DNA of 50,395 nt from a virus, in the IMG/VR virus record IMGVR_UViG_3300044635_001679, positions 1 through 50,395 of that record; one strand, written 5' to 3'. Under the pieces are notes generated by a model that was not told the origin of the DNA, did not search any database, and worked only from the letters and a program-made list of their open reading frames with translations. Below are positions 2 through 50,213 of this stretch, one piece after another. The number at the start of each line of letters is the position of its first letter. The stretch's first letter is position 1. A program made the position numbers and the translations under genes.

Positions 2-631
2 ATGAATAAAGTAAAAATTGTTTGGATGACACCAAACGTAGAACAAATTATAGGTTACTGTGCTAGAGTTAGTAATTCTGCTAATCAAGATAATCCTGAT
101 GTTGTTAAGTTGCTTAGATATTGTATTGAGCATCAACACTGGTCTATATTTGAAATGGGTAATATGTGTGTTGAATTAACTACATCGAGAGATATATCAG
201 CACAAATAATTAGACATAAATCTTTTTCGTTTCAAGAGTTTTCACAACGATATGCCAAAGTTCTCACAGTTGAACCAACTATTCCACGTCGTCAAGATGT
301 GAAAAACCGTCAGAATAGTATTGATGATTTAGAGGTAGAAACAAAACAGTGGTTTGATGATAATGTTAATTACATAAACCAATTACTTTTTTCTACCTAT
401 AATGAAGCATTAGATAAAGGTATTGCTAAAGAATCAGCAAGACGTATATTACCAATGAGTAGTACAACTAAGATGTATATGAATGGTACAATCAGGAGTT
501 GGATTCATTATTTAAATGTTCGTGCTAACCCTGAATCTGGCACACAGAAAGAACATTACGATTTAGCTAATGAAGTTAAACAATTGTTCATTACAGAATT
601 ACCAATTGTAAGTAGTGCTTTAAATTGGTAA
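2..631 (+). CDS. thyX: Flavin-dependent thymidylate synthase ThyX
   Basis: Makes dTMP from dUMP with methylene-tetrahydrofolate and FAD, supplying thymidine for phage replication. The 209-residue protein has the ThyX signature around residues 72-85 ([14 protein letters not shown]) and the C-terminal RRILPMS and RSWIHYL segments typical of the family. The family motif is normally RHRx7S; here the third residue is Lys, a conservative but uncommon change. Length is near the usual 210-250. The ATG is at base 2, so the ribosome site lies outside the window. One copy of the dispersed motif (388-398) lies inside the gene and encodes FSTY. It heads a + strand run of metabolic genes that also includes a dihydrofolate reductase. 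Confidence 0.93.
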
Positions 632-700
632 TTAGTCATCCGTTCATTAAGTTTCCAATTACTGTTGTTGGTGGCTATTAGAGATAGAAAAAGAGGAATT

Positions 701-1189
701 ATGTCAGATTACAATGTGGATGCAGTACGAGAATTAGCAGCACGTTATGTTGATCAGTTTGAACCGTTAGAACGAACTGAAAATTTTTCTACCTACAAGC
801 GAAAAGATGATGCCGATCCTAAATTACAAGAATTATGTCGTGTAGCTCATGGTGACATGATGCCTGATGACTATGTGTATAATTATATTGTTGATGCACT
901 TAGTTTGATTGCTGATAGTAGTATCAATGAATTAAAGGATTTAGATATTGAAATTGAATCAAATATTTATACCTTTGATTTGTTGAAATGGTTATATTCC
1001 AACTTAAATCGGGCTAATTACGTGAATAGTTATGTAAAAGAGTTCAGTATTGAATCGAAGGACTTTGATTTACACGAAGTTATCGCTGGTGGTCAAATAG
1101 AAGAGAAACGTGAAATATTCAATTCAGTGTTATCTTCTCTTATTACGTTGAGTAATGAGACGAAAGATGAACACAATAACGATGTATAA
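701..1189 (+). CDS. Conserved phage protein of unknown function
   Basis: A 162-residue acidic soluble protein. The frame is open further upstream (from 665), but the ATG at 701 is preceded by AGAGG at a good distance and is preferred. The segment AHGDMMPDDYVYNYIVDAL (about residues 46-64) resembles a widespread phage hypothetical family; I know no function for it. A dispersed-motif copy lies just upstream (682-692) and another inside (784-794). It follows thyX after a 70-base gap. Confidence 0.75.
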   Translation: MSDYNVDAVRELAARYVDQFEPLERTENFSTYKRKDDADPKLQELCRVAHGDMMPDDYVYNYIVDALSLIADSSINELKDLDIEIESNIYTFDLLKWLYSNLNRANYVNSYVKEFSIESKDFDLHEVIAGGQIEEKREIFNSVLSSLITLSNETKDEHNNDV

Positions 1190-1219
1190 ACTATTGTAGT
1201 AGTATTACGGTAATCAGTT

Positions 1220-1261
1220 AAAATATGATGTATGGTAATTCAATATCGTACATCATATTTT
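1220..1261. promoter_or_regulatory. Perfect 13-bp inverted repeat before membrane protein gene
   Basis: Arms AAAATATGATGTA (1220-1232) and its exact reverse complement (1249-1261) flank a 16-base spacer. The right arm ends directly against the ATG at 1262. It could be a hairpin that hides the translation start, a terminator for the preceding gene, or an operator. It lacks a long T run, which weakens the terminator reading. Confidence 0.5.
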
Positions 1262-1990
1262 ATGTTCATTGCTCAAACAACAAGTACAACTAAAGAACCT
1301 AATACTAATGTAGAAATAGAATTAATTACAGATACTATTAAAATATATAAAGAAACAGGTACTATTAGTTTTATTAACTTATTATTGTTACTACTAGCTA
1401 GTGTAGTAGTGATACAAAATCATATTAGTAAAATAAGATTACTTAAAACAACAACTGGTAACATAATAGCTTACATCAATAAGGATTCGGTTCAACAGAA
1501 GAAGAAAATAGAACAAATATTAATTGAGTTAAGAGCGTTAACTGATGCAGATCGTGTTGTAGTAGGATTGTTTCATAATGGTACTAGTGTTGGGAGTTTT
1601 CATTTCACTAAGTTAAGTCTGGCATATGAGTCACTTAAAACTGGTATAACATCATTACGTAAACGCTATAAGAATATTGATGTAACTGGAATAGAAGATG
1701 AGTTATTAACTTACCAATCAGATAAGTTTACTCGTAATGCTATTTCAGATGTTAACGTTGATAATGGTTGCAAGCAATATCTTAATAGCATAGGATTAGA
1801 AGCTGTTTACACTAGACTTATTCCTGTTAATGGTGAAAAGAACAATTATTATGGTGTTATACAAATACAGTTTGCAAGTGAACACAACGATGAAATATCA
1901 GAAGATAGACTGAAAGAGGTAGAAAAAACATATAATAGATTACTAACGGCTTTAGACTTTGTGCGGCGCAATAAACGAATACCAGATTAG
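1262..1990 (+). CDS. Single-pass membrane protein with GAF-like cytoplasmic domain
   Basis: About 242 residues. A hydrophobic segment near residues 37-51 (INLLLLLLASVVVI) predicts one membrane helix near the N terminus. The rest, with LTDADRVVVGLFHNGT about 45 residues after the helix, resembles GAF-like domains found in phage membrane proteins; ligand and role are unknown. An in-frame ATG at 1232 would add ten residues but lies inside an inverted repeat, and neither start has a clear Shine-Dalgarno sequence. The C terminus contains EVEK from a dispersed-motif copy (1917-1927). Confidence 0.6.
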   Translation: MFIAQTTSTTKEPNTNVEIELITDTIKIYKETGTISFINLLLLLLASVVVIQNHISKIRLLKTTTGNIIAYINKDSVQQKKKIEQILIELRALTDADRVVVGLFHNGTSVGSFHFTKLSLAYESLKTGITSLRKRYKNIDVTGIEDELLTYQSDKFTRNAISDVNVDNGCKQYLNSIGLEAVYTRLIPVNGEKNNYYGVIQIQFASEHNDEISEDRLKEVEKTYNRLLTALDFVRRNKRIPD

Positions 1991-2001
1991 GAGTTATAGT
2001 T

Positions 2002-2343
2002 ATGTTGACAAGTGAAGCATTACGGTATTGTAACAACAGAATACAAGAACTAACGACTAGTTATGATAATGAAACAATACAGAAGTTACGTAATATCGTT
2101 GAATGTTTGTTTAGTTATTTAGATAAACATGATATTAAAGAAGTTGATAGTATAATTATTCATTGTTGGCAAGAACCTGTTATAGATGTTGAATATAATT
2201 TAGCTATTGATGTAGGTATAAATCTTTTTATGGATTTAACTTATGTTAAGTATGAAGGTTTCAATATAACAAATGAAGGATCATTTGACTTACACAACAT
2301 AAATAAATTATTTGATCGGGTATTTACAGATGACTTACATTAA
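2002..2343 (+). CDS. Small acidic protein, unknown
   Basis: 113 residues, preceded by TAGGAG eight bases before the ATG. No motif recognised; it looks like a compact alpha/beta soluble protein. Its last codons overlap the start of the small membrane gene at 2330, indicating translational coupling. Confidence 0.7.
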   Translation: MLTSEALRYCNNRIQELTTSYDNETIQKLRNIVECLFSYLDKHDIKEVDSIIIHCWQEPVIDVEYNLAIDVGINLFMDLTYVKYEGFNITNEGSFDLHNINKLFDRVFTDDLH

Positions 2344-2482
2344 ACTCGCAGCATTTATTTTTCTATCTGGTGGTTTTGCATTTGGTTTATGTGACAGATG
2401 GTTAGCTAGTGATTATTACAGCTTTACTATTGCGACCATCTGTAGCTTACCATTGTTAGTGTTATTTCCTTATGGAGAGTAG
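2330..2482 (+). CDS. Small two-helix membrane protein
   Basis: A 50-residue product starting at an ATG inside the end of the preceding gene and ending two bases before the dam start. It has two hydrophobic stretches (LAAFIFLSGGFAFGL and FTIATICSLPLLVLF) separated by a short polar loop, as in holins or small membrane accessory proteins; no function can be assigned. The first helix contains IFLS encoded by a dispersed-motif copy (2358-2368). It fills an otherwise empty gap with coupled spacing, which supports it being real. Confidence 0.55.
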   Translation: MTYIKLAAFIFLSGGFAFGLCDRWLASDYYSFTIATICSLPLLVLFPYGE

Positions 2483-2484
2483 TT

Positions 2485-3261
2485 ATGAAACCCTTGTTAA
2501 AATGGTGTGGATCAAAAGGACACCTTGCTAATCATATAGCAGAACATTATTATGCTGGTAGCTATAAACGATTAGTTGAACCGTTTTGTGGTGCTAGTGC
2601 TGTTACATTACATATTGAACCAGAAGTTGCATTACTTAATGACGTTAATCCTCACTTAATTAACCTCTATAAACAAATACAACAACAACTAGATATTAAC
2701 TTAGATTTGTTTGTTAATGATGAAAGTTACTATTACACTTGGCGTAATCAGTTTAATATTTGGATAGAAGAAAATAACTACTTAACTAAAGATGCGGCGT
2801 TATTGTTTTACTATCTAAACAAACATTGTTTCAATGGTCTTTGTAGATTCAATAACAAAGGAGAATTTAATGTACCATACGGTAAATACAAAACAGTTAA
2901 GTTGCTACAAGACTTCACTAACTACACTAATCTTTTTTCTACCTATTGTTTCTCTTGTAGTGATTTTGAACAACTTGAGATTAATGATGATGACTTTGTA
3001 TATGTAGATCCACCTTACTATAATGTATTCACGAAATACGCACAACAAGACTTCAAATGGGAAGATCAACTACGATTAGTTAATTGGTTATCCCAACTTA
3101 ACTGTACTGTTATAGCTAGTAATAGTTATGATGATACGTTAGTTAAGTTATATAGTGATGCTGATTTCATAGTTAGTGATGTTATTGCACCACGAAGTAT
3201 TAGTTGTAATGGTGATAGAACACCTGTTAAAGAAATGATTGTTTATAGAATTAAGAGATAG
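2485..3261 (+). CDS. dam: Dam-type DNA adenine N6-methyltransferase
   Basis: Transfers methyl from SAM to adenine in DNA, probably at GATC as in Dam/DpnII-type enzymes. The 258-residue protein starts LLKWCGSKG (the K-W-x-G motif), has the SAM-binding VEPFCGA motif near residue 36, the catalytic DPPY near residue 173, and ends with a KEMIVYR element typical of the family. There is no partner nuclease nearby, so an orphan protective or regulatory role is likely. The stop TAG at 3261 lies inside a dispersed-motif copy (3256-3266) whose last base begins the next ATG. Confidence 0.92.
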   Translation: MKPLLKWCGSKGHLANHIAEHYYAGSYKRLVEPFCGASAVTLHIEPEVALLNDVNPHLINLYKQIQQQLDINLDLFVNDESYYYTWRNQFNIWIEENNYLTKDAALLFYYLNKHCFNGLCRFNNKGEFNVPYGKYKTVKLLQDFTNYTNLFSTYCFSCSDFEQLEINDDDFVYVDPPYYNVFTKYAQQDFKWEDQLRLVNWLSQLNCTVIASNSYDDTLVKLYSDADFIVSDVIAPRSISCNGDRTPVKEMIVYRIKR

Positions 3262-3265
3262 AAAA

Positions 3266-3538
3266 ATGAAAAAAATTAAATGTAATATCACTCCAAAAAC
3301 TGAATACAATGAAGAATACTTTATGAGGATGTTAAATTATGATAATAGAGAACTACCACTACTACCAAAGTCATGTTCAGATTGTGCAGTAACTTGTAAA
3401 CTTTATATTGAATGTAGTGAAGCTTTAAAACAACAATCACCAGAACTACAACTACAAGTTAGTAAGAGTTGGATTTGTCATAATAATCCTAACTTTACTT
3501 GTAGAGGTAATGCTGATAACTTAGGATTAACTTGGTAA
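3266..3538 (+). CDS. Small cysteine-rich, probably zinc-binding protein
   Basis: 90 residues. The frame is open upstream inside dam, but the ATG at 3266, four bases after the dam stop, is the natural start. Cysteines occur as CSDCAVTC, CSEA and WICH..NFTCRG, a spacing that suggests a structural zinc site. I do not recognise a function. The dispersed motif AGATAGAAAAA directly abuts the start and may provide the purine-rich ribosome site. Confidence 0.7.
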   Translation: MKKIKCNITPKTEYNEEYFMRMLNYDNRELPLLPKSCSDCAVTCKLYIECSEALKQQSPELQLQVSKSWICHNNPNFTCRGNADNLGLTW

Positions 3539-3542
3539 AGTA

Positions 3543-3770
3543 GTGAACATCAGACATGAAAAAAACTTTCAACGTTGGCTTAAAGAACGTATTAATGTTG
3601 AATTAACAGAACAAGAAAAGAAACTGTTGTTAATCATGTATGAATACTTTGTTAATAGAATTGAAGCAAAAGATAATAGAATTAACAACTTAGAACTACA
3701 AGTTAAACAATTACGAGTTGACTTAAAGTTTAATGATGAATCTTGGCGTGATTATATTAGAAGAGGTTAA
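3543..3770 (+). CDS. Small helical protein, unknown
   Basis: About 75 residues from a GTG at 3543; no ATG is available upstream in frame. It contains a predicted helical or coiled-coil stretch (NRINNLELQVKQLRVDLK). It is packed four bases after its neighbour and two bases before the next gene, so it is very likely part of the same transcript. Confidence 0.6.
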   Translation: MNIRHEKNFQRWLKERINVELTEQEKKLLLIMYEYFVNRIEAKDNRINNLELQVKQLRVDLKFNDESWRDYIRRG

Positions 3771-3772
3771 TT

Positions 3773-4057
3773 ATGAAAGATAACTTACTACAAGAATTAG
3801 AATCTTATATCAATAAGAAAGTTGATCAATTAGTTAGAAATAAAACAGCGAGTCTAATTAGACAAGGTGATATCTACGAAGATGTTAATGGAGAATTATA
3901 TTGTGAAATTGAAAACACTAGACGTTTAATTGATGAACTAAAGAACGATCATCATCTAACAATTAATGCTGTAGAAACTGAAGGTTATTTACGTGGTTTA
4001 CTTTACGTAAAAAGTTTATTTGATATGTATGAGGTAGAAAAAGAAAATGACGATTAA
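3773..4057 (+). CDS. Small acidic helical protein, unknown
   Basis: 94 residues, ATG preceded by AGAGG. Mostly charged helices; resembles small accessory phage proteins without known role. The C terminus EVEKENDD is encoded by a dispersed-motif copy (4032-4042) and overlaps the dihydrofolate reductase start by 11 bases. Confidence 0.7.
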   Translation: MKDNLLQELESYINKKVDQLVRNKTASLIRQGDIYEDVNGELYCEIENTRRLIDELKNDHHLTINAVETEGYLRGLLYVKSLFDMYEVEKENDD

Positions 4058-4607: not shown

Positions 4608-4656
4608 TTTACTAAAGTATTACAATGAGCGTTAGAAGATTGATTGATTAATATTG

Positions 4657-4702: not shown

Positions 4703-5172
4703 TTGGAACTGATTGTGGTGTTATAAATAATAGTTACTGTGTTATTGACACAACAACCTTAACTATATTAGAAGTAGGTGATGTAGTTAGTAAACACAAA
4801 TTACTTCAGGATAAGTTACTTAATATAGATAACAAGTACGGCGAGTTATTTAATAAGTACAAACCTGAAGTATTTGTGTATGAAGAACCTTGTTTTATTG
4901 GTAGAGGTGTTAATGGTACTAACATTAGTCAAGCATTAGGTGTTATTAAACTTAATGCTGCTAAAGTTGGTGCTACTATAATTTCATATAGTGCTACTCA
5001 TATAAAGAAACAAGTAACAGGAGATGGTAAAGCCGATAAAGAATTAGTAGCTAGTAACGCCGCTAATTATTTTAAAGTTGATAAGTCTATTTTTCTATCT
5101 GATCATAGTAGTGATAGTGCTGCTATAGGAATGTGTTATCTAATTGAACAAGGAGTTACTAATCATGGATGA
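4693..5172 (+). CDS. RuvC-like Holliday junction resolvase
   Basis: RNase H-fold endonuclease that probably cleaves branched DNA during recombination or before packaging. The 159 residues show the expected order of acidic sites: LIGTDCG (Asp7), VYEEP near residue 60, and HSSDSAAIGM near the C terminus. SQALGVIKL and SATHIKKQVTGDGKADKE match RuvC family blocks. The phrase IFLSDHSSDSA shows that a dispersed-motif copy (5090-5100) encodes the residues next to the last catalytic aspartate. The next gene overlaps its end by eight bases. Confidence 0.87.
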   Translation: MILIGTDCGVINNSYCVIDTTTLTILEVGDVVSKHKLLQDKLLNIDNKYGELFNKYKPEVFVYEEPCFIGRGVNGTNISQALGVIKLNAAKVGATIISYSATHIKKQVTGDGKADKELVASNAANYFKVDKSIFLSDHSSDSAAIGMCYLIEQGVTNHG

Positions 5173-15507: not shown

Positions 15508-18320
15508 CGTCCACGTCCCGGTAATGCACTTGGTAATAGTGATCCCAACGTTATATCTTTTTTAATTATATCTAATATACCACTATTACTGTTATTACTA
15601 TTAGGTTTAGGGATAGCTTCTTTAATGCTACTAACGTTAATATTATCCCTATCTATTCCCATTGTTAATTGAGTAGTACCAGTAACAAGAGGTAATCTAG
15701 TAACTGTATTAATACCTTCAAATACAAAGTTATGTTGAACTGAGATTACCCTGCGTTTATACGTTGTTCCTTCCACACTTAATACAACTTTATCACCACT
15801 CTTAATACTTAGATTTAATGGGATAGTACAACTACTACTTAGAGTATTACGAATATCATCAATTTTAAGTTGATTAGTTACAGCACTAATTACTTCATCT
15901 ACACTAGTAGCTTTTTCAAAACTTAAACTACTTGCACGTGGGAATCCGCCGTTATATGGACTTGTGAATAGTACATATCTAAACTGTTTTTGTTCTTTAG
16001 GTTTATCTTCTTTCTTAGATTCTACGAGTTCATAAGGTTTAGGTTTTTTTGTGTGAACAGGTGGTATCCCATCAGATTGACTTGTGCTTGTTTCTTCTAG
16101 AACTGCACCAAATCCAGGTTCTTGTGATGAAAAGGTAGAGTTAAAAGTTATGTACCGATCTTGTTCTGGTATACCATCAACTGCAAAGACAGCTTTACTT
16201 GTATTTTTAGATTCTAATATTTTAATGAAACTACGACGATATGATTCTTCACCTGTGATGAGTGGTGGATAATATGGTTCAGGTGGATTTGCTTTAACAT
16301 CACGTAATAAGTTCTTAGGGTTATCAACTTGTAAATAGCAACTTATTTCTTCTGCTTCACTAATAGCAAACATAGGTTCAACATAATCAGGACGTACTTC
16401 CCAACTACTAGAACCATCTTTGTTACACTTTTTGTAAAATTTCTCTTCATTTTCAAAGTTTTTATAGTAATCACGATGTGCGTTTAACAGATATCTTTTT
16501 GCACCATATAATGGTACATATCGAAATCTATAAGTATCATTTTTAGCTATTTCAAAATCAGTAGGTTTAGGACTATTGTCTTTATAATTAAATTCAAGAT
16601 AATATTTTTGTGTATAAATATCATCACCTTCCGCTTCAGGACGTAATAACCTACTACCTACAATGTCATATCCAAGTAAATAACCAGTTCCACTACCAGC
16701 ACTTAAACCGTCATCGTATAAATAAGTAGTTACTTTTTCTTCAATTAAAACCCACCAATTCGCAGGATAATCTTCTTCTAAGATAGGTTTTAAATCATTA
16801 GCATTAACAGTAATCACTTTTGTTATATCTACAGCCCTATATGCAAAACCATAACGTCTTGTTATTTCAGAAATAGGAAAACCATCTTCTTCTGTTACTA
16901 TAACTATGGTTTTAGTTACACCACTCTTATCAAAGTTAAGAGATAAATCAGTTAACTTAATTACATTAGGAGGACAAAAAGGAGCATCAAGATCACCTTT
17001 ATTGTAAGTTCTTCTTTTAATTTTACGTTGTTGATAACGTGGCGGTAAAGTTTGAGTTGGTTCATTTACATCTACAATCTTATTACCACTATTATCAAAT
17101 ACATCAGAAACAACATAATTTTGTAATGTAGGTTTAGGTATTAAGTTATTATCTTCAAAGGTAGAAAAAATAGGTTTACTTGTTATTGTTGTTGGAACAA
17201 GTGCTGTGTAATTAATGTTATTAATACTAATATTACCTGAACTTAACGGCGCAATTGGTTTACGATTTATTGTTGTATTGAAGTTAGACAACAACATACC
17301 ATCGTTAATATAATGGGTTTGTACTGTATTAATATTACGTACTTGAATAGTATTACCGTCTGAATAATCAATTACACTACTTTTAATATCTAACCATTTT
17401 TCTATCTCTCCTGAAAGAGTTGTAGTTATGCTATCAGGTGTATTAGTAGGAACTTTAATTGAAGCATTTAAACCTGAAATTCTCGCTCCGATTTTACCTG
17501 CTATAGCATTAATAGATGTATAATTATTACTATTAATTGGGTTATAACCTATCTGACATTCTGGATCTTGAAAGTTATTTTTTAATACACCAGGATTAGT
17601 ATTAAGTTCAATGGGTAGATTCATATACATCTCCCACTTACCACGTAGACTAACCGATACTGTTGCTGAGTAATCTTCTTTACTTACATCTTCACTATAA
17701 CTATTTACAAGAAAACTATATCCGTATATATCTACTAATGCGCCAGTTTTGAAAATTGTACGATATTGTTGTAATAGGTTAGGTTTAGTTATAAATACTA
17801 AATTAGCAGTAGGATGATCCTGCCAACTATCTGTTATACTAAATCCGCCAATGGCAGGTAAGCTGTAGAAAAAAGATGGTATTGTTCTAACAGCTAACGT
17901 ATCAATAGGTAGTTTATTAATGTAACTAACAGTATTTAATGTACTCGAACTGTAAATAGTAACTACATTATTATTGAAAGTAAATTCGCCTGGTAACGGA
18001 TTACTGTAATCACTAGCTAACTTAAAGGTAGTATTATTACTTGTAACTGTTAATGGAATATTAGTTGTAGTAAAATTATATGTATTAAATTCAGATCCAA
18101 CAGTAACACTTGTATTAACTTGAGTTAGTTCTTGAAATAGTTTAGTTAATAAACCACTTCCAGTAAACGAAGTATTAGGTTTAAGAATAGATAAGTTATT
18201 AGCACTGTTAGCATAATATTCAAAGTAAGATAAGTTAGGAGAAGTAAGTTGCCACATGAAATACGTTAATGATAGAGAAACTACAGTTACTAATGAGTTA
18301 GGACTTACCACTACTATCAA
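15504..18320 (-). CDS. Putative tail hub or baseplate protein
   Basis: 938 residues (917 if the second ATG, at 18257, is used). Located between the distal-tail candidate and the fibre cassette, the usual hub position. The N-terminal half is beta-rich; the middle is charged and Tyr-rich (GFAYRAVDITKVITVNANDL, DYYKNFENEEKFYKK); a Pro/Lys linker (HTKKPKPYELVESKKEDKPK) precedes a C-terminal domain with TIPLNLSIKSGDKVVLSVEG, reminiscent of hub domain barrels. Neither start has a clear Shine-Dalgarno sequence. The ATG at 18257 forms a CATG shared with the start of the + gene at 18256. Confidence 0.6.
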   Translation of the reverse strand: MIVVVSPNSLVTVVSLSLTYFMWQLTSPNLSYFEYYANSANNLSILKPNTSFTGSGLLTKLFQELTQVNTSVTVGSEFNTYNFTTTNIPLTVTSNNTTFKLASDYSNPLPGEFTFNNNVVTIYSSSTLNTVSYINKLPIDTLAVRTIPSFFYSLPAIGGFSITDSWQDHPTANLVFITKPNLLQQYRTIFKTGALVDIYGYSFLVNSYSEDVSKEDYSATVSVSLRGKWEMYMNLPIELNTNPGVLKNNFQDPECQIGYNPINSNNYTSINAIAGKIGARISGLNASIKVPTNTPDSITTTLSGEIEKWLDIKSSVIDYSDGNTIQVRNINTVQTHYINDGMLLSNFNTTINRKPIAPLSSGNISINNINYTALVPTTITSKPIFSTFEDNNLIPKPTLQNYVVSDVFDNSGNKIVDVNEPTQTLPPRYQQRKIKRRTYNKGDLDAPFCPPNVIKLTDLSLNFDKSGVTKTIVIVTEEDGFPISEITRRYGFAYRAVDITKVITVNANDLKPILEEDYPANWWVLIEEKVTTYLYDDGLSAGSGTGYLLGYDIVGSRLLRPEAEGDDIYTQKYYLEFNYKDNSPKPTDFEIAKNDTYRFRYVPLYGAKRYLLNAHRDYYKNFENEEKFYKKCNKDGSSSWEVRPDYVEPMFAISEAEEISCYLQVDNPKNLLRDVKANPPEPYYPPLITGEESYRRSFIKILESKNTSKAVFAVDGIPEQDRYITFNSTFSSQEPGFGAVLEETSTSQSDGIPPVHTKKPKPYELVESKKEDKPKEQKQFRYVLFTSPYNGGFPRASSLSFEKATSVDEVISAVTNQLKIDDIRNTLSSSCTIPLNLSIKSGDKVVLSVEGTTYKRRVISVQHNFVFEGINTVTRLPLVTGTTQLTMGIDRDNINVSSIKEAIPKPNSNNSNSGILDIIKKDITLGSLLPSALPGRGR

Positions 18321-18519
18321 TTGGGAAAGTCAGTTTCTCAAACAAACAATAAGTTATATCTATGATGGTAACTTACTACAAGAAGAACGTATAGTACAAC
18401 TTGATAAGTTAACAGGTGATGTTAAGATAGTTATTTGTGTTTATCATAATAATGGTAACTACACTATTACTGTTATTGATGGTAGTGAAGTTGAAATAAG
18501 AGAGGTAGAAAAAAAGTAA
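18256..18519 (+). CDS. Small protein antiparallel to the hub gene start
   Basis: 87 residues, preceded by TTAGGAG. Beta-rich (LLQEERIVQLDKLTGDVKIV) with a charged C terminus (EVEIREVEKK), where EVEK is a motif copy (18503-18513). Its start overlaps head-on the start region of the - strand hub gene, so one promoter must lie inside the other gene. Unknown function. Confidence 0.6.
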   Translation: MKYVNDRETTVTNELGLTTTINWESQFLKQTISYIYDGNLLQEERIVQLDKLTGDVKIVICVYHNNGNYTITVIDGSEVEIREVEKK

Positions 18520-18559: not shown

Positions 18560-18574
18560 CTTCTAATAACTAAT

Positions 18575-18622
18575 AAAAAACTCCAGTAACTTAATTGCTA
18601 CTGAAGTTAATTGTTGTTTTTT
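18575..18622. terminator. Bidirectional hairpin terminator
   Basis: CTCCAGTA (18581-18588) pairs with TACTGAAG (18599-18606), one mismatch. It is flanked by AAAAAA on the left and by TTGTTTTTTG on the right, so it can stop transcription from either side: the + gene at 18256 and any - strand RNA from the gap to its right. Confidence 0.6.
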
Positions 18623-18712
18623 GTCACCCTTTAAGGAGTTTCAATCCTCGTAGGGTCTGATATTCTGCTAATATTACTAACTTTATATCAAAGAATACCT
18701 ACGCCTTATTAG
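18581..18712 (-). ncRNA. Candidate small RNA with own promoter and terminator
   Basis: No open frame. On the - strand a near-consensus promoter, TTGACA (18743-18738), 17-base spacer, TGTAAT (18720-18715), should start an RNA of about 130 bases ending at the hairpin terminator. The RNA contains nested stems: ACCCT...AGGGT enclosing AGGA-TTGAAAC-TCCT. The stretch CCCTACGAGGATTGAAAC resembles the 3' half of the cyanobacterial CRISPR repeat type ending ATTGAAAC. It could be a solitary repeat mimic, or just a stable hairpin. Confidence 0.4.
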
Positions 18713-18714
18713 TA

Positions 18715-18743
18715 ATTACAGTTATTGAGTTAGAGTATGTCAA
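18715..18743 (-). promoter_or_regulatory. Sigma70-type promoter on - strand
   Basis: TTGACA and TGTAAT (5 of 6 matches to TATAAT) separated by exactly 17 bases, reading towards the hairpin terminator at 18.6 kb. It is the best promoter match noticed in the window. Confidence 0.55.
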
Positions 18744-19080
18744 CTACATAACTAAGTAAAAGGTTGAGTTATTCACTCATCGAACGTCTTTACCGGAATT
18801 GCCACGACCATACAGGTAACGGGATGTTGAACTTACGTCCATCGGCTACATCCTAATTGATACATTGTTACCAGGACGTTAATCGTCCCAATTAATCTAG
18901 TGTATCTCTAGTTCACGCATAACGTGAATTGCAGAAGGTACGATTCCAACGTACGGTGTGTTAAGTATGGAATATCTAGTTTCACTTCCCACGTCTAGCT
19001 AGTATCAACATTTAAGCACTCTGTCACTTCTGCATATAGAGCTATCTTAATATAAGTCTAACTATTATGTCAACTTGATA
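18744..19080. ncRNA. Gene-free segment with nested stems, candidate structured RNA
   Basis: No plausible gene on either strand, and base composition is less AT-rich than the flanks. Perfect stems seen: GGTAAC (18815) with GTTACC (18867) enclosing GGATGT (18822) with ACATCC (18848); GGACG-TTAAT-CGTCC (18874-18888); TTCACG-CATAA-CGTGAA (18912-18928); GTACG-ATTCCAA-CGTAC (18938-18954); GAGT..ACTC near 18764-18776. A second TTGACA lies at 19074-19069 on the - strand. Tandem and nested stems over 150 bases suggest a folded RNA; family not recognised, strand uncertain (- favoured). Confidence 0.4.
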
Positions 19081-19121
19081 GCTCTTTGAACTGTAATAAC
19101 TAGTTCCTAATTGATATACTA

Positions 19122-19631
19122 CTACATTACTAATCTTTTTTCTATCTCTGTAAAGGTAATTGAATAAGGCGTTACATAAAGTGGTTTACCTGTTCCATCA
19201 GTGCCACTAGTACCACCACCTGATTCAACATTAAGTATTCCTTTCCTTGATGTCATAATATCATCTTCTATTTCAGGTCTTACATAATCTAAGCAAGTTA
19301 CAGGAATAAACGTAGTGTAACTACTACTAATACTAGACTTAGCTAAATAACTTAAACAACGTTTCATCTTCCATTGTTGATCTTCTACATTAACTGTAAA
19401 ACTAACTGTTACTAACTTAGGTGTGATACTAGCACTACTAAATGTATCTTGCTTACCTGTTGTATCAGTTATATTTCTAGTATAGTTATTACCATCAACG
19501 GGTAACATTAAATAACTAACACTATTAATAGTAGCTCTATTCTTAGTATCAATATTAAATTGATTTAGTATTGTTTCTTGACATTCAAAATATAGTTTAC
19601 GAATATTAGTGTTAACGTAGTTACAAGTCAT
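19122..19631 (-). CDS. Putative distal tail protein
   Basis: 169 residues, beta-rich, upstream of the hub gene in reading order, the usual place of a distal tail or baseplate ring protein. Features: KLVTVSFTVNVEDQQWKMKRCLSYL and the C-terminal YVTPYSITFTEIEKRLVM. The EIEK is a motif copy (19137-19147). It ends the tail run before the gene-free segment. Assignment rests on position and composition only. Confidence 0.45.
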   Translation of the reverse strand: MTCNYVNTNIRKLYFECQETILNQFNIDTKNRATINSVSYLMLPVDGNNYTRNITDTTGKQDTFSSASITPKLVTVSFTVNVEDQQWKMKRCLSYLAKSSISSSYTTFIPVTCLDYVRPEIEDDIMTSRKGILNVESGGGTSGTDGTGKPLYVTPYSITFTEIEKRLVM

Positions 19632-42375: not shown

Positions 42376-42948
42376 CTATTTCTTTTTCTTCTTGTTCATC
42401 ATACGGTAAGCACCATAACCAGCACCACCTAATAATGCAGCAGCACCTAAACCAGCACCAATCTTACCACCAGTAGTACCTAATGCAGCACGTCCTTTAG
42501 CTAATGCTTGTTTACCATAAGATGGTAGAGCTTCTGCTGTTAACTTTATACGTTTACCTGTTCTAGCTGGTAAACCTTTGTAATCATAATTTTTAATTCT
42601 GTCTCCTAATGCCATAAGATTAGCTTTATCTCTTTCTAATACTCCTTTAGCACCGCCACTACGAGAAACAATATCGTCTTTCAACATTGCACCTTGACTT
42701 TTATATTGACCTTTTTCTAATCGTTTGTTAGCTGATCTCAAACCTAATTCAGCACCTCCATATCTAGCACCAGCCGCTAAAGCACCTGCTCCAGCTAAAC
42801 CACCAGCACCGACACCTGCATAAAATCCTAATCCACGTTTTTTACGTTTCTTTTTATCTTTACCACGTTTAAATTCAGCAGCTTGATAAGCGTTACGAGT
42901 TAACTTTTCATAATCTTCCATTGAGAAAGCAGCAATAGGTCTAGTCAT
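42376..42948 (-). CDS. Basic glycine-rich head-region protein with divergent tag
   Basis: 190 residues. Instead of FFLSD it opens IAAFSMEDYEKL and, 13 residues later, has AAEFKRGKDKKKRKKRG, the same AEF-basic element. Gly/Ala-rich stretches follow (GAGGLAGAGALAAGARYG and GGKIGAGLGAAALLGGAG). The protease gene upstream has the matching LAAFSMADME...NAEFGYR segment, linking both. Confidence 0.6.
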   Translation of the reverse strand: MTRPIAAFSMEDYEKLTRNAYQAAEFKRGKDKKKRKKRGLGFYAGVGAGGLAGAGALAAGARYGGAELGLRSANKRLEKGQYKSQGAMLKDDIVSRSGGAKGVLERDKANLMALGDRIKNYDYKGLPARTGKRIKLTAEALPSYGKQALAKGRAALGTTGGKIGAGLGAAALLGGAGYGAYRMMNKKKKK

Positions 42949-42961
42949 AATTGTTAATTAT

Positions 42962-44230
42962 TTATAATGATAATGGACTATCAACAACAAAAGTATTTTT
43001 TGTTCTTACTTGTTTAGCTTTAGTTTGTAAATTACTAGATGGTATGAACTTACCTGATTTAGTTAACATTCTTCCACCTGACTTAGTAATTACATTAGTA
43101 GCTACTTTACGTTGACGATCAGATAACTTAGGATTCTTAGTAACACTAGATCCTGATATAGTTTGACCTATTCGTTTACCTAATCTACCAACACCGGCTA
43201 ACTTACCTTTAGTAGCATTAAGCATTTTACTTCCAAACTTACTACCAATTTCACCTAGTGTCTTACCAGTAGTACCACGTTGTCTTAATGCTTTTAATAC
43301 ACCACTTACGGCTTGACGATAGCCAAATTCTGCATTTTCAGAATTATATATAGCTTCCATATCCGCCATACTAAATGCAGCTAATGGTAAATCACTACTG
43401 TAACCAACATTAGGATTAACACCTCTACCTTGTTGCATCATACGTGGATCTTGGTATTCCTCTTCTTCTTGTTCATCTTGATTCATACCAATTAATTCAA
43501 CAAACTGATCAACAAATTCTTGAATAGCTTGCATTTGTAACTCACTAGGATCTGCACCATTAAGTAAGTCATGATCTGCCATTTGTATGTTCTTAGTAAT
43601 AGTCCAAAGTTGTTCAGTTAGTAATTCGTATTGTTCTTCTAACTGTTCCATTTGATCGTTATCATTACGAAGATCATCAAATGTTAATGCAGTAGAATTA
43701 TTACCGAAGTTACCGTAACTAGCATTTTCACTATATAGAGACATTCCTACTATAGCGGGTTGTGGTGTTAATGAAAGTTCGCGTATTGTTTCAGTAGCAA
43801 GATCAAGTCCAGGGCTAACTGTTTTAACAATATTCTTACTAACTTTTTCTACTGCATCAGCAGCTTTGATAACTACTTCATCAACAAACAAACCTAATTT
43901 ACCAATAAGATGTTTAGCCCGTTTGTTAGGTAGGTTATCTTCAGTTATTACTTCTAGTCTTACACCACTTTCAAGCGATCCTAATGTATCCTTAGTAGAC
44001 TTATTGTGATTATCAAGTACAGGAATAGTAGCACCACTATCAAATAGCGCATTAGTGTTTTCAGCTATCTTGAATAATCTGTTCCTACTGAATATATGTG
44101 TTTTCTTCTTACTATCAGTATGAGTTCCTTCTACTAAGATTAAACCTCCTGTTGTAACAGTACCATCGTCATTAGTTGAATAATTACTGTTATCTATAAA
44201 TCCACTGTCGAAATGGATTAACTTTGTCAT
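42962..44230 (-). CDS. Prohead protease candidate
   Basis: 422 residues. The first 200 look like a phage prohead protease or protease-scaffold: GLILVEGTHTDSKK, IPVLDNHNKSTKDTLGSL and the very typical IRELSLTPQPAIVGMSLY. Possible catalytic histidine is in DNHN; the serine is not certain. An acidic/Gln-rich linker leads to LPLAAFSMADMEAIY and NAEFGYRQA, which resemble its own candidate target site, then a basic tail. It likely processes scaffold and tagged proteins. First gene of the head run in reading order. Confidence 0.6.
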   Translation of the reverse strand: MTKLIHFDSGFIDNSNYSTNDDGTVTTGGLILVEGTHTDSKKKTHIFSRNRLFKIAENTNALFDSGATIPVLDNHNKSTKDTLGSLESGVRLEVITEDNLPNKRAKHLIGKLGLFVDEVVIKAADAVEKVSKNIVKTVSPGLDLATETIRELSLTPQPAIVGMSLYSENASYGNFGNNSTALTFDDLRNDNDQMEQLEEQYELLTEQLWTITKNIQMADHDLLNGADPSELQMQAIQEFVDQFVELIGMNQDEQEEEEYQDPRMMQQGRGVNPNVGYSSDLPLAAFSMADMEAIYNSENAEFGYRQAVSGVLKALRQRGTTGKTLGEIGSKFGSKMLNATKGKLAGVGRLGKRIGQTISGSSVTKNPKLSDRQRKVATNVITKSGGRMLTKSGKFIPSSNLQTKAKQVRTKNTFVVDSPLSL

Positions 44231-46110: not shown

Positions 46111-46113
46111 ATG

Positions 46114-47319
46114 TTATTTATTCTTATTACGTTTACGATACTTATCCCCACCATAACTAGTTTTATATAATCCTAACCCTGCAACTGCACCAGTAGGAGC
46201 ATAGATAGCTGCTGCTAACTTACCTGAATTATTAGGATTGGTTAAATAGTTTTCCCATTTAATAAGTGCATTAGTATTTTGCTTTGATCTTCTAGCAATA
46301 CCTCTACCAATAAGTTCACCTTTACGTTTAATTTGTTCACGTATAATGTCATAACTATTAACATCGGAGTTAAGGTTAGTACCATCTCCTAATAACTTAA
46401 TATCTTTGTTATTTCTAGATAAGTATTGATATTCATCAACTAACTTGCTACCACTTTCTCTCAATTTAGCTTCAGTTTTAATTCTATTTTGTTGAGCTAA
46501 CTGATCGAATGTACCTCTTAACTTATCTCGTTGAAGTTGATATGCAGGATTACTAGCACTTAATTTACCAATCCCATAACCTAATCCTGCTACAACACCA
46601 GCACCAATAGCTGCTGCACCAACACCTTTAGCTATTTTAATTGCACGTTCTTTATTTGATTCTTTAATATCATCACGTCCCAATCTTTTGTTAATCTTAT
46701 CTGCACTTTTACGACCACCTAAGTAACCTAAACCAGCACCAACTACACCTGCTGCTAATGCCACTTTACCTGCACCTTTAAAAGCTTTACTACCATAACG
46801 TTGTAATACAGCAGGATCTATTCTAGTTGTTACTGCTTGTAATGGGCTAATATTAGGGTATTTCTTTTTAATTTGTTTAGCTAACTTAGCACCACTGTAA
46901 AGTAATGATCCTGCACCACCTAACATTGCTAATTTAGTACCTGTTGAAATACCACCTTGAATACCAGATAAGTCTTTATCTTGATATGGTATCATCTTTT
47001 TTTCTAACTCTATTTGTTTTTGTTGTTGTATCTTACGTTCTTCAGGAGATAGAAAAAATCTGTTACCAATGACATTCCCAGTTATAGCACCGCCAAGTGC
47101 GCCGTACATAGAAGCTTGCGTACCTATGTCAGTAAGTGTACTTCTATCAATATTAGGATATTTTCTAGCTAATAATGCTGTAGCACCTAATCCTCCAACT
47201 AGTCCTGTTAATGCACCAGCACGCATAGCTAAAGAAACTTTCTTCTTATTACGATCATATGATCTAACTACTTTTCCTTTTCTTACATAACTCTTAACTT
47301 TAGATTTTTTAGTTGTCAT
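46114..47319 (-). CDS. Glycine-rich basic virion protein with several hydrophobic helices
   Basis: 401 residues: KVKSYVRKGKVVRSYDR at the N terminus, then at least four Gly/Ala-rich hydrophobic helices (AGALTGLVGGLGATALLAR; YGALGGAITGNVIG; VALAAGVVGAGLGYLGG; GVGAAAIGAGVVAGLGYG) separated by basic and coiled segments. This is the make-up of phage ejection or internal pilot proteins that enter the cell envelope. NRFFLSPEER contains a motif copy (47048-47058). Confidence 0.6.
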   Translation of the reverse strand: MTTKKSKVKSYVRKGKVVRSYDRNKKKVSLAMRAGALTGLVGGLGATALLARKYPNIDRSTLTDIGTQASMYGALGGAITGNVIGNRFFLSPEERKIQQQKQIELEKKMIPYQDKDLSGIQGGISTGTKLAMLGGAGSLLYSGAKLAKQIKKKYPNISPLQAVTTRIDPAVLQRYGSKAFKGAGKVALAAGVVGAGLGYLGGRKSADKINKRLGRDDIKESNKERAIKIAKGVGAAAIGAGVVAGLGYGIGKLSASNPAYQLQRDKLRGTFDQLAQQNRIKTEAKLRESGSKLVDEYQYLSRNNKDIKLLGDGTNLNSDVNSYDIIREQIKRKGELIGRGIARRSKQNTNALIKWENYLTNPNNSGKLAAAIYAPTGAVAGLGLYKTSYGGDKYRKRNKNK

Positions 47320-47321
47320 AA

Positions 47322-48896
47322 TTATTGTTGATCTAGTCCTTTAATTAATGATAAACGTTGAACAGGTATCCCATATACTTTTGGTTCTACAGGATAATTG
47401 CGCCATTTCTTCTTACCAATTGGTGAATATGGTGACGCTTTATGTTCTAAATAACTAGAACCTGCCATTGCTCCACCTACTAACGTACCACCAACTAAAC
47501 TACCAATTATTCCGGCTTTCTTGTAATTAGGATTAACATTGTTAAGTTGTGATCTAATACCTTCATTGTGAACACTGATCATGTTACCTGCTACTCCACC
47601 TATAGCTGCACCAATTGTTGCTGGTATTCCAATACGTAAACCAGCACCTAATCTACTCATACGTTTAACTTTATCCTTACTTCCTAATCGTCTAGCAAAT
47701 GTAACTTCTAAGTCAGATAGAAAAAATAGGTGTGAATCGTTAAGTTGATTCATTTTTTTGCAAAATTTAACTAAGTCATTAGCGGCGGAAAAGTCACTTA
47801 GGAAGTCATTTAGTCTATCAATCTCTTCTTGACTAGTAGTAATTATAGGAGCATCTACATCTACAGATTTACTAATTCCATTGTCACTATACGCATTAGG
47901 ATTTCTAGTTAATTTTTTTCTTTTTTTTAATTCTTCAGTATAAATATTTTTAATTTTACTCATTCTAGTTAATTGTTTCTTTAATTTTTCTAAATATTCT
48001 GGATCATCTTCTAAAACAAAATCTATTTTATCTAATGATATATCTTTATCTATTACTTTACTTAAACCAATTTTATTAATAAGATTTTTAGGTTCTGTTA
48101 GCCATCTTTCTCTTTGCCTTGCTTCTTTATCTAATTTTTTATATTCTTCTATCAACTCTTTTAATCTTTTACTGGAGTTAATTTGATCTTCTACATCAAT
48201 AAATGGTTTCATTTCTTCGTATAACTCATTAATTTTAATGTCGAGTTCATCATCTAACATTTCACTTGCTTTTTTTGTCTCTTCTTCTATTTTCTTAGGA
48301 CTAAGTTTATATATCTTAATAGGTAGATTAACTCTTTTCAATGGTAATACTGGTAAATTACTATCAACAACATTACTAACACTACTTGTTGTTTGTATTT
48401 GTTGTTTAGGTAAAGATGCTGTTAATCGTTTAGCTATCTCTTCATAATCAATATTAGTAGTTTTAGGTTTAGGTTGTTTATCTAACACACCTTTAACTAC
48501 ATCTTCAACATCTTGTTTAGTTAGTGTTTGTTGTACAGGTTGTTTAGGTCTAACAATTTTAACTTTAGCTATAGGTCTAGGTGTTGCTTCACTAACTCTA
48601 CTAACAATATCATCTACATTAACAATATTTTCTTTAGGTAACTTGCTAATTATCTTATTAGCTATTTCATCTGTATCAACTTTAAATTGTTGAGGTTTAA
48701 CTTTACCTTTCCCTAATAAGTAAGCACCAGTTAATGTACCAACTCCTAATATTCCAATGCCGCCACCCAGTAATGCCGATTTAATATCAACTTTACGATC
48801 ATGTTGTCTTACAATACGACCCTTACGAACATATGATTTTACTTTAGTTTTACTTTTAGCAAACTCTACAGACTTAACATCAGATAGAAAAAACAT
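47322..48896 (-). CDS. FFLSD-tagged fusion protein with internal second tag
   Basis: 524 residues. MFFLSDVKSVEFAKSKTKVK then SYVRKGRIV, a Gly-rich helix, a long charged coiled body, and at about residue 389 a second tag, LFFLSDLEVTFARRLGSKD, followed by a whole copy of the LGAGLRIG...YLEHKASPYSPIGKKK module. It looks like two tagged genes joined by loss of the stop. Motif copies at 48882 and 47715 encode the two FFLSD tags. Confidence 0.65.
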   Translation of the reverse strand: MFFLSDVKSVEFAKSKTKVKSYVRKGRIVRQHDRKVDIKSALLGGGIGILGVGTLTGAYLLGKGKVKPQQFKVDTDEIANKIISKLPKENIVNVDDIVSRVSEATPRPIAKVKIVRPKQPVQQTLTKQDVEDVVKGVLDKQPKPKTTNIDYEEIAKRLTASLPKQQIQTTSSVSNVVDSNLPVLPLKRVNLPIKIYKLSPKKIEEETKKASEMLDDELDIKINELYEEMKPFIDVEDQINSSKRLKELIEEYKKLDKEARQRERWLTEPKNLINKIGLSKVIDKDISLDKIDFVLEDDPEYLEKLKKQLTRMSKIKNIYTEELKKRKKLTRNPNAYSDNGISKSVDVDAPIITTSQEEIDRLNDFLSDFSAANDLVKFCKKMNQLNDSHLFFLSDLEVTFARRLGSKDKVKRMSRLGAGLRIGIPATIGAAIGGVAGNMISVHNEGIRSQLNNVNPNYKKAGIIGSLVGGTLVGGAMAGSSYLEHKASPYSPIGKKKWRNYPVEPKVYGIPVQRLSLIKGLDQQ

Positions 48897-48902
48897 TAAT
48901 TA

Positions 48903-49160
48903 TTAACCTATTAAATCAAGTTTTTCAGTTGGAATACCATACCATCTCGATGATTGTTTGTAATTCTTCCATTTATTTTTACCAATTGGTGAGTAATGTG
49001 AATTACGATGTTCAAGATATGATCCGGCAGTACCCAATACTCCACCTAAAGAAGCAACAATCATTGCGCCTTTTTTACCACCAACAACTTAACCTGCTGT
49101 ACCTAATGTAGTAGCTCCCATTGCACCACCAATACCAACACGAACTTTAGCACCTACTAA
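48903..49160 (-). pseudogene. Broken copy of the SPYSPIGKKK module
   Basis: 86 codons with an internal TAA (49091-49089). Reading LVGAKVRVGIGGAMGATTLG, then after the stop VVGGKKGAMIVASLGGV and YLEHRNSHYSPIGKNKWKN. It is the third copy of the module in 31549-31896 and 47322-48896. It is also in the -1 frame relative to the tagged gene at 49157, whose C terminus (RGRDRKKKAKRM) is the tag that should precede it. Two lesions mean it is decayed. Confidence 0.7.
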
Positions 49161-49561
49161 CCCATACGTTTAGCTTTCTTTTTTCTATCTCGTCCTCGTT
49201 TAAATGTAGTTAGTTCGCTGCTATTAAATTCCCAAACATAATTAGGATTATCTAGGTTTTTCTTTACTGCTTCTTCACTCCAATCTTTATACACACCACT
49301 AGATGGTTGTTGAGGTACTTTGGGAAAGTTAGTAGGTGTTGTATTAACAGTGGGTATATTATCTTGAACTTGTTTAGCAACGTTCTTGGTTTTATATAAA
49401 TTTTTAGCTCCCCTTCTTAATAACAAACCAGATGCAGCTAAACCGCCTATACCTAATGCACCATAACCTAATATCTTTTTCCAATTACGTTTACGAGGAG
49501 TTTTATCTTTAGCACCTAATTTACGGTATTCTGAAACATCATAATCAGATAGAAAAAACAT
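49157..49561 (-). CDS. FFLSD-tagged basic protein, truncated at a second tag
   Basis: 134 residues: MFFLSDYDVSEYRKLGAKDK, Gly-rich helix (GYGALGIGGLAASGLLLRRG), a Pro/Thr linker, and at the end ELTTFKRGRDRKKKAKRM, a second tag without FFLSD. The frame stops where the module now found as a pseudogene should begin. Ancestral protein was probably a two-tag fusion like 47322-48896. Confidence 0.6.
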   Translation of the reverse strand: MFFLSDYDVSEYRKLGAKDKTPRKRNWKKILGYGALGIGGLAASGLLLRRGAKNLYKTKNVAKQVQDNIPTVNTTPTNFPKVPQQPSSGVYKDWSEEAVKKNLDNPNYVWEFNSSELTTFKRGRDRKKKAKRMG

Positions 49562-49571
49562 AGTTAATTAG

Positions 49572-50213
49572 TTAGTTAGATTTACGACGTTTGACTTTAT
49601 TTTTATTATAAAATGGATTCAATCTTTCAAAACCTTTAACTAATTTACCTTTACGAACATACGATTTTACTTTGCTTTTTCTATCTCTTAACTTATCAGG
49701 TTGACCACCTTTAATTAAATTAATACCTTTCTTACCTAACATATAACTACCAGCACCACCTAATCCTAATATTGCTGCACCAGCTAATGCACGTTTAGGG
49801 TTAGCTGCTATTAACTTACCAGCACCTTTGAATAAATTACCATTACCTTCTTGTTCTAACAGATATTTAGTTGCAGCAAACCTATTACCAAATGCTCTTA
49901 CTTTTTCTTTTGTTTTAAGTGCATTACCACCAAAACCACCTTGTTCTGATTGAAATGACTTACCCATTTTTAATGGGTTACCAAATGGATCATCTATGTC
50001 ATACTTAAACCTTTCAGTATTGTTGAAATAATCATCTGTACCAGGAATATATAATGTTTTACCTACACCAACAGCACCAAGAGCAGGAGAACTAACTAGC
50101 TTTTGAGTCCAACCAGCACCTAAACCTAAATACTTAGCCGTTTTTTTTAGTCCCAATTTGATCTTGTAATGACTCTTGTAATTTAAGTAATCTAGCTGCC
50201 TTTTTATCTCCAT
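49572..50213 (-). CDS. Basic virion-type protein, 3' part of a gene broken at an A8 run
   Basis: The frame runs from ATG 50213, but the first 22 residues read poorly; from about 50140 it continues naturally the frame from the window edge as GTKK-TAKYLGLGAG. It contains GWTQKLVSSPALGAVGVGKT, two Gly-rich helices (ALAGAAILGLGGAGSYMLG) and SKVKSYVRKGKLVKGFERL near the C terminus. LRDRKSK contains a motif copy (49676). See the next entry for the upstream part. Confidence 0.55.
   Translation of the reverse strand: MEIKRQLDYLNYKSHYKIKLGLKKTAKYLGLGAGWTQKLVSSPALGAVGVGKTLYIPGTDDYFNNTERFKYDIDDPFGNPLKMGKSFQSEQGGFGGNALKTKEKVRAFGNRFAATKYLLEQEGNGNLFKGAGKLIAANPKRALAGAAILGLGGAGSYMLGKKGINLIKGGQPDKLRDRKSKVKSYVRKGKLVKGFERLNPFYNKNKVKRRKSN

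Follow-up and report, generated by a model that had tools for sequence, protein, structure and literature searches.

What reads a short word that a phage repeats about once per kilobase over its whole genome? The question is raised by a 50,395-nt stretch of viral DNA (IMG/VR record IMGVR_UViG_3300044635_001679; the whole stretch is called the window below), in which we counted 55 exact copies of AGRTAGAAAAA (word A), 28 on the plus strand and 27 on the minus strand, with the outermost at 388-398 and 49676-49686. These counts bear out an initial annotation, made from the letters alone, that had reported about 55 copies on both strands and had proposed selection or active spread at the DNA level. 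The iterated word is real and phage specific; it exists in lineage dialects, is spaced per strand in two lineages, and bears signs of selection.

A sharp word with lineage dialects

Markov models of orders 0 to 4 predict 0.23, 0.21, 0.18, 0.28, and 0.63 copies of word A in the window, in agreement with the earlier estimate of fewer than one; the order-3 model, which had been named as the null to beat, thus fails to predict the count. Orders 5 to 7 predict 3.5, 17.8, and 44.3 copies because such models learn the word itself. The reversed pattern has no match in the window, and allowing up to one mismatch gives 84 matches, compared to 6.9 ± 2.8 in shuffled sequences. A 117,113-base contig, G001, is 98.8% identical to the window (529 substitutions over 44,862 aligned of the 50,395 window positions) and contains 112 copies, 57 on the plus strand and 55 on the minus strand, a density of about 1 per kb counting both strands; the strand bias that the initial annotation had suggested testing is seen in neither sequence. 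Single-base variants of the word occur 0 to 6 times each in G001, with the exception of T at position 3 (12 occurrences), and this near absence of variants makes the word a sharp one. The extension to AGAGRTAGAAAAA, which had been attributed to most copies, was overstated, as only 20 of the 55 have it. The literature searches made yielded no description of the word in a phage, and the publications containing the string were unrelated by title.

By relationship, judged from its proteins, the window phage is a cyanophage. The nearest counterparts of its lectin-like protein and of a 733-residue protein are in Aphanizomenon phage CL131 and Nodularia phages, and its 207-residue protein is 59% identical to a CL131 protein. 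Syntenic sister phages (lineage B) share 65 to 82% DNA identity with lineage A over the longer aligned segments. The sister G012 (111.6 kb) has 87 copies of word B, GTAAGAAAA, where 1.3 are expected, and a single copy of word A. In the relative G009 (records L143-L147), HIP1 is iterated instead, with 139 copies in 83 kb, and CL131 has 70 HIP1 copies in one 50-kb stretch and 175 in two (L053 and L279). HIP1, to which the motif had been likened, belongs to these other members of the phage group; it is absent from both the window and G001. The Pseudanabaena phages PA-SR01 and Pam2 (lineage C) iterate CAGAAAA followed by (A)GA, with 133 and 132 copies of CAGAAAA versus 46 expected in each. Across the 15 phage sequences compared, words A, B, and C are each abundant only within their own lineage, the largest stray being in CL131, where 100 kb contains 9 copies of word C and 1 of the reversed control. 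All three words share AGAAAA, and the base that precedes it is T in 204 of 312 occurrences in G001, A in 98 of 141 in G012, and C in 133 of 289 in PA-SR01. None of the three words is present in quantity in the HIP1-rich relatives, and FpV4, which has a homolog of the polymerase only, shows no comparable word within the 50 kb examined.

To survey the dialects, we fetched 80 contigs with the 207-residue protein and counted words A, B, and HIP1 on those of at least 7 kb. Each of the nine contigs at 74% identity to this protein (L185-L193, including four records already known) carries word B, in 8 to 16 copies, and HIP1 was found in L194-L196, L199, and L207 (25 to 47 copies). Contigs L197 and L198 (59% identity) and those at 41% identity or below had no A, B, or HIP1 in quantity. 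Contig L022 was considered as a dialect intermediate and ruled out, since 8.9 of its 15.3 kb aligns to G012 at 97.6%.

Spacing by strand and conservation

Copies are more evenly spaced than random in G001 (coefficient of variation [CV], 0.79; P 0.005) and in G012 (CV, 0.69, a value that none of 5,000 simulations reached), in contrast to the random spacing of HIP1 in G009 (CV, 1.00). Same-orientation pairs less than 1 kb apart are depleted, with 32 observed and 52.4 expected in G001 (P 0.0018) and 12 versus 33.0 in G012 (0 of 4,000 simulations as low), whereas opposite-orientation pairs are close to expectation (57 versus 53.4 and 34 versus 33.6, respectively). As low a same-strand ratio was seen for 1 of 380 similarly abundant control words in G001 and for 0 of 479 in G012. 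The mean spacing per strand, with this same-strand repulsion, is 2.0 to 2.1 kb in G001 and 2.5 to 2.6 kb in G012, and a label shuffle of the window by itself gave P 0.048. Since copies repel one another in the same orientation and are independent in opposite orientations, the site seems to be read per strand, and one site per strand every 1 to 3 kb points to a process reading one strand. We consider it rather probable that this reading is done by the replication or recombination machinery. Among the roles first listed for the motif, a site for a replication, recombination, or DNA-binding protein of the phage is the class that the sequence favors, and host mimicry is the one that finds no support.

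The sites are conserved in most comparisons. When G012 was compared to G011, G013, G019, and G021, the 105 aligned lineage B sites had 1 substitution versus 10.0 expected (base-matched rates, P 0.0005); these four comparisons are not independent, since the contigs overlap. In the direction from G001 to the window, no substitution was seen at 51 sites, where 6.6 were expected. The closest lineage B pair is an exception, as 2 of 48 sites are altered from G010 to G012 (0.46%, against a background of 0.16%), although all 46 sites are kept in the direction from G012 to G010. A second exception is the direction from the window to G001, with 7 substitutions in 55 sites (6.8 expected) and 4 altered copies, two of them in a poorly aligned stretch. 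The conservation in relatives that the initial annotation had set as a check thus held in most lineage B comparisons and from G001 to the window, but not in these two. The copies in which the window and G001 disagree, 4 in all, show single substitutions or poor local alignment and give no backing to active spread. With the exceptions just given, the excess over Markov models, the sharpness of the word, its conservation, and its spacing all support selection acting on the DNA itself.

Some sites have changed dialect where they stand. Codon alignment to lineage B was possible at 38 of the 112 A sites, and 3 of these have a B site in the same orientation at the exact position, compared to 0.11 expected (P 0.0002); a B site lies within 6 bases of 4 (0.25 expected). 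The exact coincidences indicate that some sites switched word in place, a change made easier by the overlap in letters between words A and B.

Candidate readers of the word

Polymerase, helicase, and primase genes lie in one block in lineages A and B (G001 74075-79538). The candidate primase, at G001 78693-79538, falls outside the window, in the near-identical contig. A zinc ribbon (CPVCG..C..C) is present in its sequence, as are EGEK and DND motifs of the Toprim type, it has weak matches to PHROG primase families (7.7e-6 and 6.7e-4), and its Pam2 homolog is annotated as a DNA primase; the phage thus appears to encode its own zinc-domain primase. Helicase and primase homologs are 37% and 39% identical to those of G001 in G012, 30% and 30% in PA-SR01, and 32% and 29% in Pam2. 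Among 50,697 phage records, the primase matches only PA-SR01 and Pam2, both of which iterate CAGAAAA(A)GA, and the helicase matches 13, none a Nodularia, Aphanizomenon, or Microcystis phage by record name. Neither protein gave a match in the sequence stretches examined from G009, G007 (both possibly fragments), CL131, two Nodularia phages, MaMV-DC, and FpV4. Homology to the PA-SR01 primase led to five further contigs; the three long ones contain 36, 60, and 67 copies of CAGAAAARRA (reversed control, 5, 7, and 2) and are not independent of PA-SR01, since they are 76 to 79% identical where aligned, and the other two, shorter than 9 kb, were left out of the word count. Also left out of the counts were the at least 39 weak loci returned by a family-wide primase profile scan with generic patterns. 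A term search of the PA-SR01 paper (PMC10286775) found no mention of primase or AGAAAA.

The reading of this correlation that we favor, as a tentative proposal, is that the copies are lineage-specific primase start sites for Okazaki fragments. The phage would use them to initiate synthesis by its own primase on the template of the lagging strand, where the lineage A site would read 5'-TTTTTCT/AYCT-3' (the slash marks the border of the uncopied flank). Synthesis would begin opposite the T of CT and yield the primer pppAGAAAAA (pppAGAAAA across the three lineages), and the zinc-binding domain of the primase would read the uncopied 3' flank, AYCT. The template forms in lineages A, B, and C would be TTTTCT/A, TTTTCT/T, and TTTTCT/G, so that the uncopied flank is the dialect: it would have become TAC in the sister lineage (GTA/AGAAAA) and G in the Pseudanabaena phage lineage (C/AGAAAA(A)GA), with the copied AGAAAA unchanged. 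Each strand would require its own site every 1 to 3 kb, and a nearby second site on the same strand would therefore not be maintained.

Known primase sites, as described in the cited sections, offer a likeness, in that a single strand is read and a copied part is joined to an uncopied 3' base or flank (PMC12839067, PMC8718748, PMC9198812, PMC6163395). DnaG-type primases use a short template word with an uncopied 3' base (PMC6163395), and T7 gp4 makes pppACCA on 3'-CTGGT-5' (PMC9198812). At the T7 site, 5'-(G/T)2GTC-3', the 3' flank is also read, probably via the zinc domain; inferred active T7 sites are about 1 to 6 kb apart, and the section cited reports no Okazaki fragment of less than 1 kb (PMC12839067). 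The primase-polymerase of phage NrS-1, an enzyme of another superfamily, uses an 8-base site, 5'-TTTGGTTA-3', and also a shorter one (PMC8718748). The word described here differs from these sites in its length of 9 to 11 bases, its 87 to 112 copies with near-absent variants, its even spacing per strand, and its difference between sisters.

Several observations weigh against the primase proposal and the strand-specific reading behind it. The length of 9 to 11 bases is unusual, since DnaG-type recognition is usually of a trinucleotide (PMC6163395). A PDB search does not find the primase, Pfam gives a weak Toprim_2 match (0.0086) in one of three primase homologs, and structure prediction failed for the lineage C primase (pLDDT, 44.6). 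Five more genes have matches in lineages B and C and none in the HIP1 sequences examined, namely, those for the terminase, a 2,090-residue protein, and RuvC and those at G001 42467-43303 and 67382-68239; given this shared distribution, the primase is the best, not the only, candidate reader. The contrast between same- and opposite-orientation pairs is less extreme than the same-strand depletion, being equaled at 1 kb by 4 of 380 control words in G001 and 3 of 479 in G012 and at 1.5 kb by 1 and 11 of these, respectively. The window by itself, which is short for this purpose, shows no overall evenness (CV, 0.92; P 0.36), and a label shuffle finds no significant effect in the partial contig G011 (P 0.31). 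In lineage C, the spacing effect at 1.5 kb is clear only in PA-SR01 (5 of 859 controls as low); it is doubtful in Pam2 (81 of 864) and G712 (71 of 745) and absent in G710 (173 of 773) and G711 (597 of 936). Finally, copy numbers are similar on both strands in each sixth of the genome, so that forks would have to run both ways.

Several of the alternatives turn on whether the word is also a feature of the host genome. We searched 48 cyanobacterial genomes reached via PsbA for word A, and 386 and 388 genomes (phylum and order sets, which overlap) for the wider pattern RGDWAGAAAAA, reading the enrichment ratios by eye. None of the 688 distinct genomes (G022-G709) is comparably enriched, the density being at most about 0.1 per kb compared to about 1 per kb in the phage. 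The excess over the reversed control was mild, with a top ratio of 2.8 for the wider pattern (G565, 143 to 51). For word A, an Okeania genome gave a ratio of 3.2 (120 to 38), and a ratio of 3.7 came from counts of only 11 to 3.

Chi sites are asymmetric, orientation-dependent words that are species specific and vary among species. Word A resembles them in its asymmetry and its restriction to a lineage, and its same-strand repulsion, with opposite strands independent, would fit an orientation-dependent action on one strand. A helicase-nuclease of the phage or of an unsampled host could read one strand and switch from degradation to recombination, with a site per strand every 1 to 3 kb; the per-strand spacing, the similar numbers on both strands, and the presence of RuvC, a Sak4-like protein, and an exonuclease in the phage all fit. 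However, Chi belongs to host RecBCD/AddAB and to host genomes; if a host enzyme read the word, its own genome would be expected to be rich in it, and no sampled cyanobacterium is comparably enriched. Moreover, the Sak4-like protein has no tblastn match in G012, PA-SR01, or Pam2 (G012 has its own AAA_24 protein), and the exonuclease matches G012 but not PA-SR01 or Pam2, the latter having its own annotated exonuclease. We regard a Chi-like role as unlikely.

A putative site at which a phage protein binds to fold, segregate, or package the DNA would account for sites that occur genome-wide and more evenly than random in G001 and G012, and the phage has KilA-N and Bro-N DNA-binding proteins with G012 homologs and a terminase common to lineages A, B, and C. 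A duplex binder, however, gives no reason for same-orientation repulsion without opposite-orientation repulsion, and we judge this role quite unlikely.

Very unlikely, too, is a host-matched word of the HIP1 or uptake-sequence type, set by host machinery, even though phage relatives carry HIP1. Uptake signal sequences (USS) and DNA uptake sequences are short asymmetric words on both strands, as is the word here. USS also have lineage dialects, which are mirrored in the Pasteurellaceae phages of those hosts (PMC6776037, in the part cited), but they stem from host uptake specificity, and we found no host with word A among the cyanobacteria searched; the true host may be unsampled. HIP1 and alternate HIPs resemble the word in occurring about once per kilobase, in coding and noncoding DNA, and in being replaced by other words in some lineages. 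They are, however, GC-rich palindromes and a feature of host genomes (PMC4390886, in the part cited), while word A is asymmetric rather than palindromic, AT rich, spaced per strand, unlike the randomly spaced HIP1 of G009, and not comparably enriched in the sampled genomes. The host-directed mimicry proposed in the initial annotation thus gained nothing from the search of these cyanobacterial genomes.

The window encodes a D12-class adenine methyltransferase (2485-3261), and a phage methyltransferase could mark the asymmetric word for self-recognition or for strand choice in repair. D12 enzymes usually read GATC, though, the window enzyme has no tblastn match in the sister G012, and no methyltransferase is among the 25 Pfam families listed, of 28 found for 58 G012 proteins. 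A methylation mark is highly improbable, despite the matching methyltransferases that accompany alternate HIPs (PMC4390886, in the part cited).

Copies are spread over coding and noncoding DNA, as the initial annotation had stated. By one set of open reading frames (ORFs) in G001, 44 copies are sense, 36 are antisense, and 32 are intergenic; with ORFs of at least 60 amino acids, 76 of the 112 copies lie wholly within ORFs, 34 are fully intergenic, and 2 are partly so, the intergenic share of positions being 12.6%. Genic copies occur in both orientations and in frames that avoid stops. Near gene starts, orientation A has 8 copies at -40 to -20 and 7 at 0 to 20, and orientation S has 8 at -20 to 0, compared to about 2.8 expected per bin for the two orientations combined. 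Mycobacteriophage stoperators are likewise asymmetric 13-mers found across a phage genome, with dialects, but they are mostly intergenic and in one orientation to transcription. A promoter, terminator, or repressor stoperator is scarcely credible here, despite the excess near gene starts, since most copies are genic, orientation to the nearest gene start is unbiased (56 versus 56), and the flanks show little conservation past about 5 bases.

Individual copies, neighboring sequences, and implications

Eight G001 gene starts read ATGTTTTTTCTATCT and encode MFFLSD or MFFLSN; a ninth match (62186) was excluded, since a stop follows after 24 codons. Comparable starts in the sister G012 encode the similar peptides MYILSD, MQLLSD, MFLISD, and MFILND, and the word may therefore have shaped the peptide in lineage A. 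M(L)FFLSD/N opens about 10 G001 ORFs (L012-L014) located within the structural block or next to it (frames at 5090, 12463, 14024, 14690, 21217, 24736, 30035, 31351, 32251, and 40933), most continuing with a basic stretch such as LGxKDKKKRK; these starts look like a shared virion targeting tag.

Table 1. Exact matches to AGRTAGAAAAA in the window, with remarks on G001 and G012 counterparts taken from alignments
Copy	Position	Strand	Remark
AGGTAGAAAAA	388..398	-	
AGATAGAAAAA	682..692	+	
AGGTAGAAAAA	784..794	-	
AGGTAGAAAAA	1917..1927	+	
AGATAGAAAAA	2358..2368	-	
AGGTAGAAAAA	2934..2944	-	
AGATAGAAAAA	3256..3266	+	
AGGTAGAAAAA	4032..4042	+	
AGGTAGAAAAA	4384..4394	-	
AGATAGAAAAA	4480..4490	+	
AGATAGAAAAA	5090..5100	-	
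AGGTAGAAAAA	5891..5901	+	
AGATAGAAAAA	6004..6014	-	
AGATAGAAAAA	6664..6674	-	G001 has AGATAGAGAAA
AGATAGAAAAA	7832..7842	-	
AGGTAGAAAAA	10057..10067	-	G001 counterpart 54549 aligned to G012 GTAAGAAAA site
AGGTAGAAAAA	12008..12018	+	
AGATAGAAAAA	13017..13027	+	G001 counterpart 51239 aligned to G012 GTAAGAAAA site
AGATAGAAAAA	14823..14833	+	
AGGTAGAAAAA	15267..15277	+	
AGGTAGAAAAA	15421..15431	-	
AGGTAGAAAAA	17159..17169	+	
AGATAGAAAAA	17397..17407	-	
AGGTAGAAAAA	18503..18513	+	Poor alignment to G001
AGATAGAAAAA	18549..18559	-	Poor alignment to G001
AGATAGAAAAA	19137..19147	-	
AGGTAGAAAAA	20407..20417	+	
AGATAGAAAAA	20781..20791	+	
AGATAGAAAAA	20832..20842	-	
AGATAGAAAAA	23197..23207	+	
AGATAGAAAAA	23963..23973	-	
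AGATAGAAAAA	26291..26301	-	
AGATAGAAAAA	29565..29575	-	
AGGTAGAAAAA	29840..29850	+	
AGGTAGAAAAA	31041..31051	+	
AGATAGAAAAA	31839..31849	-	
AGATAGAAAAA	32737..32747	+	
AGATAGAAAAA	33585..33595	+	Directly within ORF start; G001 has AGATAAAAAAA
AGATAGAAAAA	33763..33773	-	
AGGTAGAAAAA	33784..33794	-	
AGATAGAAAAA	33824..33834	+	Directly within ORF start reading ATGTTTTTTCTATCTGA
AGATAGAAAAA	33940..33950	-	
AGATAGAAAAA	37073..37083	+	
AGATAGAAAAA	38833..38843	+	Inside stretch reading ATGTTTTTTCTATCTGA
AGGTAGAAAAA	38911..38921	-	
AGATAGAAAAA	40200..40210	-	
AGATAGAAAAA	42352..42362	+	Directly within ORF start reading ATGTTTTTTCTATCTGA
AGATAGAAAAA	44550..44560	-	
AGATAGAAAAA	44659..44669	+	
AGATAGAAAAA	47047..47057	+	
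AGATAGAAAAA	47715..47725	+	G001 counterpart 15861 aligned to G012 GTAAGAAAA site
AGATAGAAAAA	48882..48892	+	Directly within ORF start reading ATGTTTTTTCTATCTGA
AGATAGAAAAA	49180..49190	-	
AGATAGAAAAA	49547..49557	+	Directly within ORF start reading ATGTTTTTTCTATCTGA
AGATAGAAAAA	49676..49686	-	

A window gene at 18256-18519 lies within a 282-base stretch that is 93% identical to the cyanobacterial genome G688, in which the motif end is altered; the word pattern is not enriched in G688 as a whole (95+96 versus 67+69 for the control). The similarity possibly reflects gene exchange with a host or satellite, and the matching G688 region contains a gene that is phage-like by eye. A 566-nt region (18560-19125) folds well on the minus strand (z, -3.9), with a terminator-like hairpin at the end, and matches no Rfam family at the gathering threshold; small parts recur in lineage B phages. 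Dozens of genomes in the searched set of 388 cyanobacteria have sites about 77 to 98% identical to a 46-base block of the window (18782-18827). The related contigs L197 and L198 contain a CRISPR-like array with 21 copies of GTTGGATTGAAAC spaced 57 to 78 bases apart (minus-strand numbering from 4045) and two further copies about 3 kb on.

The primase proposal can be extended to the genome as a whole, though more doubtfully: the genome may be a hard-wired priming-site grid, in which a 9- to 11-base primase word is kept as a copy per strand every 1 to 3 kb, shapes protein starts, and is rewritten together with the primase. If so, Okazaki start sites would be readable from sequence, and a primase would have coevolved with about a hundred genome-wide sites. 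The phage would also provide a purified-protein test system for the meaning of iterated words, which is an open question for HIP1. Iterated words elsewhere could be put through the per-strand spacing test to tell strand-read from duplex-read sites.

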